A stretch of 64,000 nucleotides of DNA from NCBI RefSeq assembly GCF_010499265.1, contig NZ_JAAGSC010000043.1, positions 131,843 to 195,842 of the forward strand. The letters are read 5' to 3'. Of this stretch, positions 50,973 to 55,740 are shown one piece after another (within the stretch, counting starts at the first letter, position 1; every line of letters starts with the position of its first letter). The DNA comes from Wenzhouxiangella limi. Its GTDB lineage: Bacteria > Pseudomonadota > Gammaproteobacteria > Xanthomonadales > Wenzhouxiangellaceae. The translations under genes and the position numbers were made by a program. The notes under the pieces were generated by a model. It was given only the letters and a program-made list of their open reading frames with translations, was not told where the DNA came from and did not search any database.

Positions 50973-51671
50973 TTACGCCGTCGGGAAAACCTGCAGTTCG
51001 TTGCGAACTTCGTGAACGCCCGGCAAGCACCAGCAGTCGGCGCTTGCGCGCTGCTTCTGTGCCTCGCTGGCGACCCGACCACCGAGGTGGACCTGGCGAT
51101 CGCGAACCAGGGCGTTGATCTCATGGTTGCGCAGGGCCGGATCTTTGCTGAAGACCATCTCCAGGGCTTCGGCGAGCTCGCCATCGTTCTCTTCCTGAGC
51201 CGGCTTGACGCGCAAACGGTTGTCGACCTCGGTGATGCCGGGCGTCCACCAGGCCAGGACCTCGGCCAGCCGACGGTGGCTCAGGCTTTCCACCACTCCG
51301 TCCAGGCGAACGACGCCGTCGTCTACCGAATACATGATGCACTGTCCATCGGGTTCTTCCGCTAGCGCATCGGCCGTGTCGATGGTAATGCCCTGGAACT
51401 CGACCTCGCCGCGCAATGCCTGGTCAAGCGTAGCGGCGATTTGATCATCGCCCCGCTGCTGTTGTGGCCGCAACCGCAACCCGTCGGCGACGAGGCCGTG
51501 TTCGGTCGTTTCCATCGCCACCCTCAGGGCACGTCTTTTCGCGCCGAGCGTTGTAACGACGCCTTGCAGCCGGATGACGTCGTTCTCGACAACATTGATC
51601 TCGTCGACGTCGCTTTTCACCTCCGGCTCGCGCTCCAGTGCGGCTTTGATCTTGCTGGAAACGTCACTCAT
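50973..51671 (-). CDS. Triple BON-domain protein without signal peptide
   Basis: 232 aa. Three BON modules are recognisable (about 4-65, 75-155 and 163-230) from the repeated pattern of a short helix, then VxLxGxV and an x-V-x-NxL-V ending (for example VVRLDGVVESLS and TEVDNRLRV; VHLGGRVAS and HEVRNELQV). Unlike OsmY-type BON proteins it has no export signal, so it is probably cytosolic. BON domains bind phospholipid surfaces or other proteins. It is divergent from the split ligD genes, which share its intergenic region. Confidence 0.85.
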   Translation of the reverse strand: MSDVSSKIKAALEREPEVKSDVDEINVVENDVIRLQGVVTTLGAKRRALRVAMETTEHGLVADGLRLRPQQQRGDDQIAATLDQALRGEVEFQGITIDTADALAEEPDGQCIMYSVDDGVVRLDGVVESLSHRRLAEVLAWWTPGITEVDNRLRVKPAQEENDGELAEALEMVFSKDPALRNHEINALVRDRQVHLGGRVASEAQKQRASADCWCLPGVHEVRNELQVFPTA

Positions 51672-51844: not shown

Positions 51845-52489
51845 ATGAGTCGGCCCATCAAGCGTATATCGATGTCAACAAAACATTATCGCCAGAAAAG
51901 AGATTTCCGCCGCACCGACGAACCTTCGGGAAAAGGGGGTGACAGCAGCCGCAATGGTGCCGAGCAACCGGTGTTTGTCGTCCAGAAGCATGATGCTTCA
52001 ACGCAGCACTACGATTTTCGTCTCGAAGTCGATGGCGTCCTCAAATCCTGGGCGATTCCCAAAGGGCCATCCGTTGATCCGAAAGAAAAGCGCCTGGCGA
52101 TCCCGACCGAAGATCACCCCCTGGACTATGCCGGCTTTGAAGGCGTCATACCGAAGGATGAATACGGCGGCGGAACGGTGCTGATCTGGGATCGGGGCAC
52201 GTACGAAAACATCACCGACAAGGATGACGGCAAACGATCAATGGCCGATGCGATCGATGATGGCCACGTGCTCGTGAAACTGCAAGGGGAAAAGATTTCC
52301 GGCGGCTATGCGCTGCATCGCACCGGTAGCGGCGAGGACGCGCGCTGGCTTCTGATCAAGATGGACGACGATCACGCCGATGCGCGACGCAACCCGGTGT
52401 CGACCGAAACCGAGTCTGTCGTCAGCCACCGGACGCTGGACGAAATCGCCGATGAGGAGAGCGGCGGTGAGGGCCGCGGCGATGGGTGA
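51845..52489 (+). CDS. LigD 3'-phosphoesterase (PE) domain as a separate protein
   Basis: 214 aa. Matches the stand-alone PE module of bacterial LigD: the KRDF N-terminal motif, QKHDASTQHYDFRLE (His49, His55, Asp57 metal site), His91 in DHPLDYAGFEGVIPKDEYGGG, and the C-terminal WLLIKMDD strand. It trims 3'-phosphate and ribonucleotide ends of breaks. The start at ATG 51845 is chosen from an AAGG site 5 nt away; ATG 51872 (STKHYRQKRDF) is a shorter alternative. The 3' end overlaps the ligase gene by 23 nt. Confidence 0.9.
   Translation: MSRPIKRISMSTKHYRQKRDFRRTDEPSGKGGDSSRNGAEQPVFVVQKHDASTQHYDFRLEVDGVLKSWAIPKGPSVDPKEKRLAIPTEDHPLDYAGFEGVIPKDEYGGGTVLIWDRGTYENITDKDDGKRSMADAIDDGHVLVKLQGEKISGGYALHRTGSGEDARWLLIKMDDDHADARRNPVSTETESVVSHRTLDEIADEESGGEGRGDG
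52454..52459 (+). promoter_or_regulatory. Ribosome-binding site that decides the ligase start
   Basis: GAGGAG lies 7 nt before GTG 52467, whereas the next ATG (52482) would have a 22-nt gap. This favours the GTG start, inside the end of the PE gene. Confidence 0.6.
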
Positions 52490-53504
52490 CTGGCGACAGG
52501 CGCTGGATAAGAGCGAACGCGAGGCGCTGGAGCGTTCGCCGCATCCCGACTGGCTTGCGCCCATGCTGGCGACCCTGACCCATGATCACTTTTCGGACCC
52601 GGACTGGCTCTTCGAGCCCAAGTTCGACGGTGAGCGAGCGCTTGCTTTTCGCGATGGCGATCGTGTCCGCTTGATGAGTCGCAACCAGAAAAACCTCAAC
52701 GACACCTATCCCGAACTTGAACAGGCGCTGAAAGACATGGCGATCGAAGATTTCGTGATCGACGGCGAAATCGTGACCTTTGAAGACGGTATCAGCAATT
52801 TTTCTCGTCTGCAGGAACGCATGCAGATCAGCGACCGGGAGGAGGCCGCAGCGAGTGATGTCGAGGTGCATTTCTACGTTTTTGATCTGCCTTATCTTCA
52901 GGGTTATCGACTTGATGGATTGACACTGCGTCGTCGCAAGGCGCTGCTGAAGAAAATGTTTGATTTCGGTCACCGCATCCGCTACACCCCGCACCGCAAT
53001 GAGGCGGGCGAAGATTACCACCAGTATGCCTGTCAGCAAGGCTGGGAGGGCGTCATTGCCAAGCGCGCCGACTCGGCTTACCGGCACAGCCGCTCGACGG
53101 ACTGGCTCAAGTTCAAGTGCAGCAATGGTCAGGAACTTGTGATCGGAGGCTTTACCGAGCCGCACGGCGAGCGCCCGGGTTTCGGCGCCCTGCTGGTCGG
53201 CTATTACGACGATGACAAGCTTCGTTACGCCGGTAAGGTCGGGACCGGTTACGACAATGATTTCCTGGAAAGCTTTCGCCGCCGCCTCGACAAGCTCGAG
53301 CGCAAGACCTGTCCATTTGCCGAGGAGGTTGACGAGGACGGTGTCCATTGGGTCAGCCCCAAACTGGTTGGCGAGTTCGGTTTTACCGAGTGGACCAGCG
53401 ACGGCAAGCTGCGTCATCCGCGCTTTATCGGTTTGCGGCGTGACAAGGAGCCCAGGCAGGTCGTGCGCGAAGTGCCTGCCGATAAAAGCCAGGAGAAGAC
53501 ATGA
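52467..53504 (+). CDS. LigD ATP-dependent DNA ligase (LIG) domain as a separate protein
   Basis: 345 aa from GTG 52467. Catalytic lysine in EPKFDGER (Lys52, KxDG), motif III-IV segment FVIDGEIVTF and EGVIAKRADS, and motif V WLKFKC; the C-terminal OB fold ends in ...RFIGLRRDK. It seals nicks using ATP. It has no PE or POL fused. It overlaps the PE gene by 23 nt and the POL gene by 4 nt (ATGA). Confidence 0.93.
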   Translation: MRAAAMGDWRQALDKSEREALERSPHPDWLAPMLATLTHDHFSDPDWLFEPKFDGERALAFRDGDRVRLMSRNQKNLNDTYPELEQALKDMAIEDFVIDGEIVTFEDGISNFSRLQERMQISDREEAAASDVEVHFYVFDLPYLQGYRLDGLTLRRRKALLKKMFDFGHRIRYTPHRNEAGEDYHQYACQQGWEGVIAKRADSAYRHSRSTDWLKFKCSNGQELVIGGFTEPHGERPGFGALLVGYYDDDKLRYAGKVGTGYDNDFLESFRRRLDKLERKTCPFAEEVDEDGVHWVSPKLVGEFGFTEWTSDGKLRHPRFIGLRRDKEPRQVVREVPADKSQEKT

Positions 53505-54415
53505 CCGATAAAAGTGTACGGATCAACGGTCACGATATCGAGGTTAGCAGCCTGGACAAGGTGCTGTTTCCCGACGACGGTATTACCAAGGCCGATCTAA
53601 TCGATTACTACCTGCGCATCGCCAAAGTAGCCCTAACGTATTACCGTGATCGACCGTTGAGCATGCACCGATACCCGGACGGTATCGATACCAAAGGGTT
53701 CTTCCAGAAAAATGCGCCCGACTATTTCCCGGACTGGATCGACCGCGTTCGGCTGTCCAAGGAAGGCGGTGAGGTCGACTACGTGCTGGCCAACAATACC
53801 GCTACTCTGGTCTACCTCTCCAACCAGGCCTGCATCACGCCGCATCTGGCGCTGGCGCGGGCAGATCGGCCGCATCATCCCGATCGGTTGATCTTCGATC
53901 TCGATCCCTCCGATGAGGACTTTTCAAAAGTCCAGAAAGCGGCCAGTCAATTGAAGGGATTGCTCGACAAACTTCAGCTACCGGTCTTCGTTCAGACCAC
54001 CGGCTCGAGGGGTCTGCATCTTGTTGTGCCGCTTGATCGAAGAGAGGACTTCGATACGGTGCGTGAATTCAGTGATCGACTAGCCCGTTATGTGGCCGAT
54101 CATGATCCTGAACTGATGACCATCAAGAAGACCAAAAATCAGCGCGGCGACCGGGTTTATCTGGACGTTCAGCGCAACGCCTATGGACAGACCGCGGTAG
54201 CCCCGTATGCCGTGCGTGCTCGCCCGGGTGCCCCGGTCGCGACGCCGCTGCGCTGGAGTGAAGCGCAGGCCGGCGACCTGGGCCCGCGTCAATACCATGT
54301 CGGCAATCTTTTTCAGCGGCTTGGGCAGATCGATGATCCCTGGGCGGATATCGCCCAACATGCCTGCTCGTTGAAGAACGCGCGCAAACGATTTGACGCC
54401 ATGAAAACCAACTGA
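53501..54415 (+). CDS. LigD polymerase/primase (POL) domain as a separate protein
   Basis: 304 aa archaeo-eukaryotic primase-type polymerase module. The catalytic DLD is at 133-135 and the nucleotide-binding GSRGLHLVVPL at 168-178, with the HRYPDGIDTKGFFQKN N-terminal signature. It adds ribonucleotides or fills gaps at break ends. It is last of the three LigD parts, in the PE-LIG-POL order found in Pseudomonas LigD. No Ku gene lies within the window. Confidence 0.94.
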   Translation: MTDKSVRINGHDIEVSSLDKVLFPDDGITKADLIDYYLRIAKVALTYYRDRPLSMHRYPDGIDTKGFFQKNAPDYFPDWIDRVRLSKEGGEVDYVLANNTATLVYLSNQACITPHLALARADRPHHPDRLIFDLDPSDEDFSKVQKAASQLKGLLDKLQLPVFVQTTGSRGLHLVVPLDRREDFDTVREFSDRLARYVADHDPELMTIKKTKNQRGDRVYLDVQRNAYGQTAVAPYAVRARPGAPVATPLRWSEAQAGDLGPRQYHVGNLFQRLGQIDDPWADIAQHACSLKNARKRFDAMKTN

Positions 54416-54441: not shown

Positions 54442-55740
54442 ATGAGCGACAGACGCGAAAGTGGCACCAGCGAACGCAGGGTTCACGATCATTTGGCCGC
54501 GGCTCTTTTGCCGACCCTGGCGGATGCCCAGGACGGCCAGGAAGCGGCTGAGCGCACCATCGCCGAGGCGACGATGAGAGACGCGGTTGACGCGCGCGCC
54601 AGCGACATTCACCTCGACGCCTTTCGCGGCCGGTATCGGGTGCGTTTCCGAATCGATGGCGTCATGGTGGATGTCGCCGAGGTCGATCATGACGACGGAG
54701 CCCAGCTGGTCAACCAGTTCCGGGCGCTCGCCCGGATCGATCCAGTGGCCAGCCACGGGCCGGAGGACGGCCGGTTCAGCTATACCCTTGACGACCTTGA
54801 TCTGGATGTCAGGGTGACGGGCGCGCCCTGCGTTGCCGGCGAAAAACTGGCGATTCGCCTGCTGGCGCCGGACCGAGTCCGTCAGGACATTGGCGAACTG
54901 GGTCTGGAAGCGCAGGAGTTGCAATATCTTCAGGCCTGGCTGCAAGGCGTGGGCGGCATGCTGCTGGTGGCCGGCCCAACGGGCAGCGGTAAAACCACGA
55001 CCTTGTATTCACTGTTGCACCAGCTGTCGTTGACCGACCATCAGGTCCTCACCCTGGAAGATCCGGTTGAATATGGCATTTCCGGCATCAATCAGATGCC
55101 GGTCGATCCGGAGCGCGGCTGGGACTTTGCCGAGGGTGCTCAGGCCATGCTGCGCCTTGATCCCGATTACCTGGTCATTGGTGAACTGACGCAGAAGGAA
55201 TCAGCGCGGGCTGCCGCCAACGCGGCCGCCGGGGGTAAGGCGACGATGGCGACTATTCACAGCCGCGATGCGGCCGACACGGTGACCGTTTTACGGAACT
55301 ACGGACTGGACGATTTCGAGGTCGCTGCGAATCTTCAGCTGGTCGTGGCCCAACGGCTGGTTCGCAGGCTGTGCCCGGATTGCCGCCAAGAGCGCGCGCC
55401 CGAAGAGCAGGACCGGCGCTGGATGAAGGCGTTGGCGCTTTCAGTGCCCGAACGGGTCTGGGCTGCGTGCGGCTGCGAACAATGCCAGGGCATGGGCTTT
55501 AAGGGTCGAATCGGGGTGTTCGAGGTCTGGCGGCCCAGCGACGAGGAGTACAGCATGATTCTCGAGCATGTCGGCGCGCACGAGATTCGCCGCAGCCTGG
55601 CCGAGAGAGAACATCGCTTTTTGCTCGACGATGGCCTGGAAAAGGCCCGGGTTGGCGTGACCAGCCTGAGCGAACTGCGCAGCCTTGGCGCGCTCAGCGC
55701 AACCGCCGCCCGCGGACGAGCTTCGCTGGTGGCCGGCTAG
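54442..55740 (+). CDS. Orphan GspE/PilB-family ATPase
   Basis: 432 aa. The N-terminal ASDIHLD segment (53-59), Walker A GPTGSGKTT (178-186), the Asp box LEDPVEY, the His box ATIHSRDA and a C-terminal cysteine pair set (CPDC, then CGCEQC) match type II secretion/type IV pilus assembly ATPases. The Walker B region reads YLVIGELTQKESA, where the usual IGE(I/L)RDxET is altered at Arg and Asp. The N-terminal N1E domain is missing. No other secretion or pilus gene lies nearby; it follows ligD by 26 bp in the same direction. Confidence 0.88.
   Translation: MSDRRESGTSERRVHDHLAAALLPTLADAQDGQEAAERTIAEATMRDAVDARASDIHLDAFRGRYRVRFRIDGVMVDVAEVDHDDGAQLVNQFRALARIDPVASHGPEDGRFSYTLDDLDLDVRVTGAPCVAGEKLAIRLLAPDRVRQDIGELGLEAQELQYLQAWLQGVGGMLLVAGPTGSGKTTTLYSLLHQLSLTDHQVLTLEDPVEYGISGINQMPVDPERGWDFAEGAQAMLRLDPDYLVIGELTQKESARAAANAAAGGKATMATIHSRDAADTVTVLRNYGLDDFEVAANLQLVVAQRLVRRLCPDCRQERAPEEQDRRWMKALALSVPERVWAACGCEQCQGMGFKGRIGVFEVWRPSDEEYSMILEHVGAHEIRRSLAEREHRFLLDDGLEKARVGVTSLSELRSLGALSATAARGRASLVAG

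Follow-up and report, generated by a model that had tools for sequence, protein, structure and literature searches.

The genes reported here encode enzymes of the LigD type, namely a 3'-phosphoesterase (PE), an ATP-dependent DNA ligase (LIG) and a primase-polymerase (POL). Many species encode these domains as separate genes within an operon (PMC4797286, PMC5663958, PMC4538821, PMC1378119), and for the stand-alone genes of Streptomyces coelicolor, action in trans has been posed as a question (PMC1378119). In mycobacteria, the LigC/Prim-PolC pair acts in excision repair, where it fills short gaps with ribonucleotides (PMC5663958, PMC7442782), and 619 "LigD only" genomes have been counted (PMC7719229). 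Here we describe PE, LIG and POL as three overlapping genes in Wenzhouxiangella limi, on a stretch of 64,000 nucleotides of contig NZ_JAAGSC010000043.1 (positions 131,843 to 195,842, forward strand), which as a whole is called the window below. A first-pass annotation of this DNA had started from the view that LigD is normally one polypeptide, which is too strong given the species cited above. Judging from sequence comparisons, these genes probably form a Methanocella-like operon of separate genes whose products clean 3' ends, fill short gaps and seal them without Ku. Separate operonic genes are already in the literature; the Ku-less state is the less described aspect.

The three open frames lie in tandem on the plus strand of the window (Table 1). 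PE and LIG share 8 nucleotides (ATGGGTGA), LIG and POL share the four of ATGA, and each frame has its own start and stop, in the relatives as well as here, so that the domains are not joined in one polypeptide as in LigD. All three match family models over nearly their full length: PE matches PF13298 (positions 1-107 of 107, 1.5e-43) and TIGR02777 (2-155 of 156, 5.8e-64), LIG matches TIGR02779 (1-301 of 302, 1.4e-90) as well as PF01068 and PF04679, and POL matches PF21686 (1-254 of 254, 1.5e-87) and TIGR02778 (1-243 of 245, 1.6e-75). For PE, the start at 51872 (MSTK...) agrees with those of relatives by alignment, and the alternative at 51845 has AAGG just upstream. By alignment, LIG most likely starts at the ATG at 52482, which coincides with the ATG starts of all four aligned relatives; the GTG start proposed in the first-pass annotation exists at 52467 as a possible start, and is not needed.

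Table 1. Positions of the three genes in the window.
Gene	Position	Strand	Description
PE	51845 or 51872..52489	+	LigD-type 3'-phosphoesterase, standalone; 205 amino acids from 51872, 214 amino acids from 51845
LIG	52482..53504	+	LigD-type ATP-dependent DNA ligase, standalone; 340 amino acids; ATG start 8 nucleotides before PE end
POL	53501..54415	+	LigD-type primase-polymerase, standalone; 304 amino acids; ATGA shared with LIG stop

The catalytic residues point to complete modules in all three proteins. In PE, Q38, H40, H46, D48, R50, S59, E80, H82 and Y86 are invariant across seven sequences, and we take them to be the equivalents of Pseudomonas aeruginosa Gln40, His42, His48, Asp50, Arg52, Ser61, Glu82, His84 and Tyr88. 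The adenylation motif K47-x-D49-G50 of LIG is invariant (5/5 sequences). The same holds in POL for D133, D135, D222, H115, F67, F68, R57, K20 and K30 (6/6 sequences), to which we presumptively assign active-site roles, in part after PMC4797286 and PMC8656161. The P. aeruginosa PE numbers come in part from PMC8656161. Active-site residues of the three proteins are all kept among the aligned Wenzhouxiangellaceae relatives. Thus, the open frames, the family matches and the conservation in relatives agree with the earlier description of three intact, overlapping genes in the stable order PE-LIG-POL.

The host genome (G000; genomes and loci are given G and L numbers below) measures 3.35 Mb in 44 contigs and is 99.59% complete. 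A profile search of this draft gave no match to Ku, which extends to the whole genome the absence first noted near the locus. The profile matched only Bacillus subtilis among 14 control genomes, and it finds Ku in 22 of 32 genomes (31 Gammaproteobacteria with PE, plus G039). Ligase, POL and PE searches revealed no fused or second ligD, with one POL match and one PE match in the genome, so that the concern that a LigD elsewhere would make these genes pseudogenes is not borne out. Two ATP-dependent ligases were matched, LIG itself and a protein of 545 amino acids encoded about 4 kb before the window. The latter scores above the TIGR04120 cut-off, which makes it a cisplatin damage response ligase and not a LigD. 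About 56 kb from PE-LIG-POL, a ligase-associated helicase (TIGR04121), this second ligase and a ligase-associated exonuclease (TIGR04122) are encoded consecutively (L022, 3397-8454); by these family matches, they constitute a known and different repair cluster.

The nearest named relatives of the host belong to Wenzhouxiangella and Wenzhouxiangellaceae. Among 43 genomes of this family, PE was found in 9, POL in 8 and Ku in 1. In eight of the nine PE-bearing genomes, PE is standalone and no Ku was found, with a completeness of 75% for G039 and 85% for G001 and G034. The ninth, G005, is the only family genome with Ku, and encodes a fused LigD of 851 amino acids with two adjoining Ku genes. Identity to the window proteins is 56-70% for the separate relatives and 34-44% for the fused proteins of G005. 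The whole PE-LIG-POL set is present in five genomes (G000, G001, G002, G003, G016). In W. sediminis XDB06 (G015), PE overlaps POL directly with no LIG between them, and no ATP-dependent ligase was matched genome-wide. In G034 (L029, 5364-6403), PE is intact, but of the 305 positions of POL only the first 85 or so remain, and no LIG is found in the locus, a loss of POL that reads as one-sided decay; in G039, PE was matched and POL was not.

A wider survey was based on an even draw of 276 genomes of the class Gammaproteobacteria, our own included, sorted by frames, neighbours and Ku. PE occurs in 32 of them, 19 of which have a fused LigD, 18 with Ku and one without (G133). The latter, the sole exception among the fused LigDs of the class, encodes a fused LigD of 930 amino acids (L151) in a genome listed as 100% complete without a Ku match. 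Four genomes (G070, G199, G292, G206) present partial splits with adjoining Ku; in G206, PE is separate from a LIG-POL fusion. This genome also has a second, separate PE-POL set (L147, 3134-4746) whose PE is broken by a stop. Separate sets only were found in seven genomes, four with LIG (G000, G093, G256, G289) and three without LIG in the locus (G260, G183, G281), and none of the seven has a Ku match. Finally, G124 and G190 have PE alone, without POL or Ku. Ku thus accompanies 17/18 fused LigDs and 0/7 separate-only sets (Fisher p = 1.7e-5, uncorrected for kinship, G183 and G281 being of the same genus). This comparison counts G068 as fused although its POL changes frame, and omits the partial splits with Ku (G206, G070, G199, G292), the genomes with PE only (G124, G190) and G195, which has both kinds and Ku.

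The ancestry of POL and LIG does not follow that of fused LigD. A profile of six separate POLs found as its best solved chain the NHEJ (non-homologous end joining) polymerase of Methanocella (5dmu, 387.9 bits), before mycobacterial Prim-PolC (178.5 bits), Mycobacterium tuberculosis LigD (168.6 bits) and P. aeruginosa LigD (160.9 bits). Its alignment to the Methanocella polymerase runs almost end to end and has two gaps, each of a single residue. The best solved chain for PE was also the Methanocella PE (217.6 bits; next 187.0). For LIG it was the ligase of M. tuberculosis LigD (1vs0, 1.8e-56), no chain named as a Methanocella ligase being among its solved matches. Membership of POL in Prim-PolC was considered and rejected. 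The C-terminal extension Loop 3 is a Prim-PolC feature (PMC7442782); the POL-family profile of 305 positions ends at residue 298 of the 350 of Prim-PolC, leaving about 50 residues, Loop 3 included, without counterpart, and the base-stacking pair is F67-F68 in the window POL versus Ile-Tyr in Prim-PolC 6sa0.

A quick POL tree of 118 rows placed the separate POLs and the Methanocella reference on a branch of 90 rows (Shimodaira-Hasegawa-like approximate likelihood ratio, SH-aLRT, 99) with no three-domain fused row; the 23 fused rows did not form one branch. The large separate branch also includes two Streptomyces POLs (L107, L130). The same division, 37 versus 27 rows, was recovered in a careful tree of 64 rows, with a support of 93/89 that is below the threshold for a starred branch. 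In a quick LIG tree, 33 of the 34 separate ligases shared one branch (SH-aLRT 98), with L089 outside. For PE, no single branch gathers the standalone proteins: five changes are needed, at least three of them forced by starred branches. L029 was omitted from the trees for its truncated POL, its PE being kept in the PE tree, and L023-L026 and L028 were omitted as duplicates of named loci. These trees show POL and LIG to be of an ancestry separate from that of fused LigD. The first-pass reading of a split LigD must therefore be abandoned, since both proteins cluster with enzymes encoded by separate genes and apart from fused LigDs. The set was not produced here by splitting a LigD; as far as unrooted trees can tell, the window genes represent an old lineage of separate genes that is present in many microbes. 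True secondary splits do occur elsewhere in the class, in groups f29 and f38, which have Ku adjoining and fall among the fused POL rows. Group f29 (L150, L156, L159) comes from genomes of 1.4-1.6 Mb, with Ku adjoining PE-LIG and POL separate; in L156, PE is separate and LIG lies in two frames.

The overlap of same-strand genes gives the layout of separate operonic PE, LIG and POL, as far as layout alone can tell. Distances could be measured in 27 of 29 PE-LIG-POL loci, each time from the possible start closest to the stop, a choice biased towards short distances. No more than 30 nucleotides separate a possible LIG start from the PE stop in 24/27, and a possible POL start from the LIG stop in 22/27. 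From this spacing, PE-LIG-POL is most likely a translationally coupled operon. The nearest relatives of the window genes being too distant, the ratio of non-synonymous to synonymous substitutions (dN/dS) was taken from relatives, and amounts to 0.10 for PE, 0.16 for LIG and 0.17 for POL in a Wenzhouxiangellaceae pair (L062-L063), and to 0.07-0.12 for all three genes in three Salinisphaera pairs. The three genes are thus under purifying selection in relatives.

Loci of the same kind are widespread. Named genomes were scanned with an alignment of separate POLs, and the 80 loci kept out of 176 relatives come from Wenzhouxiangella, Alphaproteobacteria, Salinisphaera, Halomonas, Gemmatimonadetes, Dehalococcoidia, Anaerolineae, Dependentiae, Nitrospirae, Maribacter, Streptomyces, an Odinarchaeia bin and others. 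Because this set was found with a separate-type POL query, the ratio of separate to fused forms is taken only from the class survey. Ku was tested for 74 of the 80 loci, leaving aside five Wenzhouxiangellaceae covered by the family survey and L085, from the same bin as L073. It was matched in 14/49 and 6/25 genomes (20/74), and not in the other 54, which belong to many phyla, an absence inflated by the many metagenome bins of unknown completeness. Among the 20 Ku-positive genomes, eight also have a POL frame of at least 800 amino acids, taken as fused LigD by its length.

PE and POL without LIG in the locus make up 27 rows. For these, 23 genomes were searched for ATP-dependent ligases (G342, G356, G365 and G206 omitted, G034, G039 and G381 added). 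Neither an ATP-dependent ligase nor Ku was matched in 15 of the 23. Seven of these 15 come from isolates or have a completeness of 98% or more (W. sediminis, four Halomonas, G260 and G183), the other eight being metagenome bins. The remaining 8/23 have an ATP-dependent ligase somewhere, within a frame of 820 amino acids in G364. As neither Ku nor an ATP-dependent ligase was matched, the ligase-less pair cannot rely on LigD/Ku end joining, and these genomes are the strongest sign of a job of PE and POL apart from that pathway. Also, three metagenome bins of 0.9-1.1 Mb (L093, L100 and the Dependentiae bin L101) carry PE and POL in a single frame of 510-538 amino acids, without LIG.

For the operon of W. 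limi, we infer the substrate, the use of ribonucleotides, the physical assembly of the proteins, the order of steps and the sealing ligase. PE would trim blocked 3' ends (3'-phosphate or an extra ribonucleotide), POL would fill in one or a few missing bases, with a preference for ribonucleotides, and LIG would seal the nick. Where LIG has been lost, for example in W. sediminis and Halomonas, we assume that the NAD+-dependent replicative ligase would do so. The substrates could be single-strand gaps or nicks that arise in excision repair or from oxidative damage; they could also be broken ends, bridged by POL itself through microhomology. With no Ku found, short gaps are the likely substrates by analogy with mycobacterial LigC/Prim-PolC (PMC5663958); if the absence of Ku is real, end joining that depends on it can be excluded. 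More tentatively, PE and POL, with or without their own ligase, may be the core of a widespread Ku-free pathway distinct from NHEJ, of an old lineage apart from fused LigD, which would use ribonucleotides to mend short gaps and blocked 3' ends, ligase-less members (Halomonas, W. sediminis) passing the nick to the replicative NAD+ ligase.

Several observations weigh against Ku-independent gap repair. POL, without Loop 3 and with Phe-Phe, looks like the end-joining polymerase type. In 12 of the 20 Ku-positive named genomes, there is no POL frame of at least 800 amino acids, and in those genomes the separate set may act in end joining with Ku, as has been described for Methanocella. In two Salinisphaera (L080 and L083, the latter being the L143 locus), the separate set lies a few kb from an opposite-facing Ku-Ku-fused LigD. 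No repair gene was found as a regular neighbour across distant loci. The polymerase features are the reason why Ku-free microhomology-mediated joining of double-strand breaks, in which POL would bridge the ends by its loops, PE would trim and LIG would seal, is a candidate. It is consistent with the near full-length match to the Methanocella polymerase, the kept base-stacking Phe pair and wedge Arg, the presence of all three enzyme types and the proposal of microhomology-mediated end joining for these polymerases (PMC4797286). We nevertheless judge it unlikely, since 15/23 of the PE-POL relatives have no LigD-type ligase for double-strand ends, and the pair suits gaps better.

The explanations that involve Ku or a broken LigD are far less probable. 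If the genes were the remnant of a Ku-dependent pathway, with Ku recently lost and the enzymes decaying, one could understand why fused LigD is almost always accompanied by Ku in the class survey, why in G034 POL is reduced to about 85 of its 305 positions and LIG is missing from the locus, and why only 9/43 family members keep PE. Such a remnant is however very unlikely, given the retained catalytic residues, the dN/dS of 0.07-0.17 (in relatives, the window genes' own kin being too distant) and the 54/74 genomes of many phyla that have separate-type POL and no Ku match, many of them incomplete metagenome bins. A diverged or unassembled Ku is slightly less likely still: the genome is a draft of 44 contigs and some separate sets elsewhere do accompany Ku, but no candidate was found in the genome itself, nor any match in the seven other family members with standalone PE, three of which are 75-85% complete, and the profile was able to detect Ku in 22/32 genomes. 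As for a fused LigD split in this genome by a frameshift, or a sequencing error, overlapping frames and nothing else speak for it. Sequencing error is untenable because the identical separate layout recurs in independent relatives, species and phyla, and POL and LIG lie on branches apart from fused LigD; this explanation can be dismissed almost entirely. Ku-independent cleaning, filling and sealing by a separate operon therefore keeps our preference.

The surroundings of the genes did not name a pathway. No conserved neighbourhood of that kind was found among the 38 frame clusters common to at least four of 89 loci. Shadow frames of PE, LIG or POL make up most of eleven of these clusters, including the four widest (27-72 loci); the others come mostly from Salinisphaera or Halomonas loci alone, and the wider ones among them resemble, by eye, sensor kinases, response regulators and transporters. 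A UvrD-like helicase frame flanks the separate set in L077, L080, L083, L138 and L162 (Salinisphaera group) and in L098 (a Bacillota bin, whose frame is the only one scanned by profile). In three members of one sister genus (L059, L062, L063), PE-LIG-POL is preceded by a frame of the IMS family (ImuB-like) and by an M90 peptidase, the IMS match of L059 being below the cut-off; in a Pfam scan of 18 neighbours from five relatives, this pair was limited to that genus. In the window, a frame of 432 amino acids for a T2SSE-family ATPase (54442-55740, plus strand) begins 27 bases past the POL stop, and is possibly in the same transcript. The divergent neighbour (50973-51671, minus strand) has three BON domains and a weak kinship to OsmY, a stationary-phase protein in Escherichia coli; this kinship would fit a stationary-phase control of the operon. 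It had no tblastn match in the loci of the seven relatives checked.

A scan for promoters and terminators gave no promoter match, and five terminators for 3.6 expected. The motif SVxSGRTxxxIA at the C-terminus of PE was considered as a possible docking tail peculiar to the separate PEs and rejected, as the loose pattern, present in 31/64 separate frames (26/59 when five loci counted twice are taken once), is also found in 8/23 fused ones. Plasmid matches amounted to 611 records, all below 60% identity; among the 15 listed, two Streptomyces plasmids come top at 53% and the others range from 35 to 41%. Phage matches were two short fecal contigs (31-32%).

In genomes without Ku that have exactly these three genes, any activity must be Ku-independent. 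Ku-less three-gene sets and ligase-less pairs are thus natural systems for testing the roles of these enzymes outside end joining. A literature search, mostly at the level of titles and abstracts and with few subscription journals, found no account of the Ku-less three-gene set as a class, nor of the ligase-less PE-POL pair as a class.

Compared with described systems, the window set shares its three enzyme types with the LigD of P. aeruginosa and M. tuberculosis, and the order PE-LIG-POL with that of P. aeruginosa (PMC1378119). However, LigD is one polypeptide with a Ku partner, whereas the window encodes three polypeptides, with POL and LIG on other branches and no Ku match in the genome. 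S. coelicolor likewise has stand-alone genes for a nuclease, a polymerase and a ligase, but there Ku is linked to the polymerase gene (PMC1378119), unlike here. Mycobacterial LigC/Prim-PolC also consists of separate ligase and polymerase genes, and acts in excision repair and not in Ku end joining (PMC5663958, PMC7442782); the available portions of these papers describe no PE component, whereas the window set includes one. The closest likeness is with the NHEJ enzymes of Methanocella paludicola (PMC4797286; PDB 5dmu, 5dmp), which are also encoded by separate Pol, PE and Lig genes in one operon, and whose Pol and PE are the closest solved kin of the window POL and PE, POL being on the same branch. 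They were described within a Ku-based pathway (PMC4797286), whereas the genome of W. limi has no Ku match. For this reason, we place the window set with the Methanocella-type enzymes and not with the NHEJ pathway.

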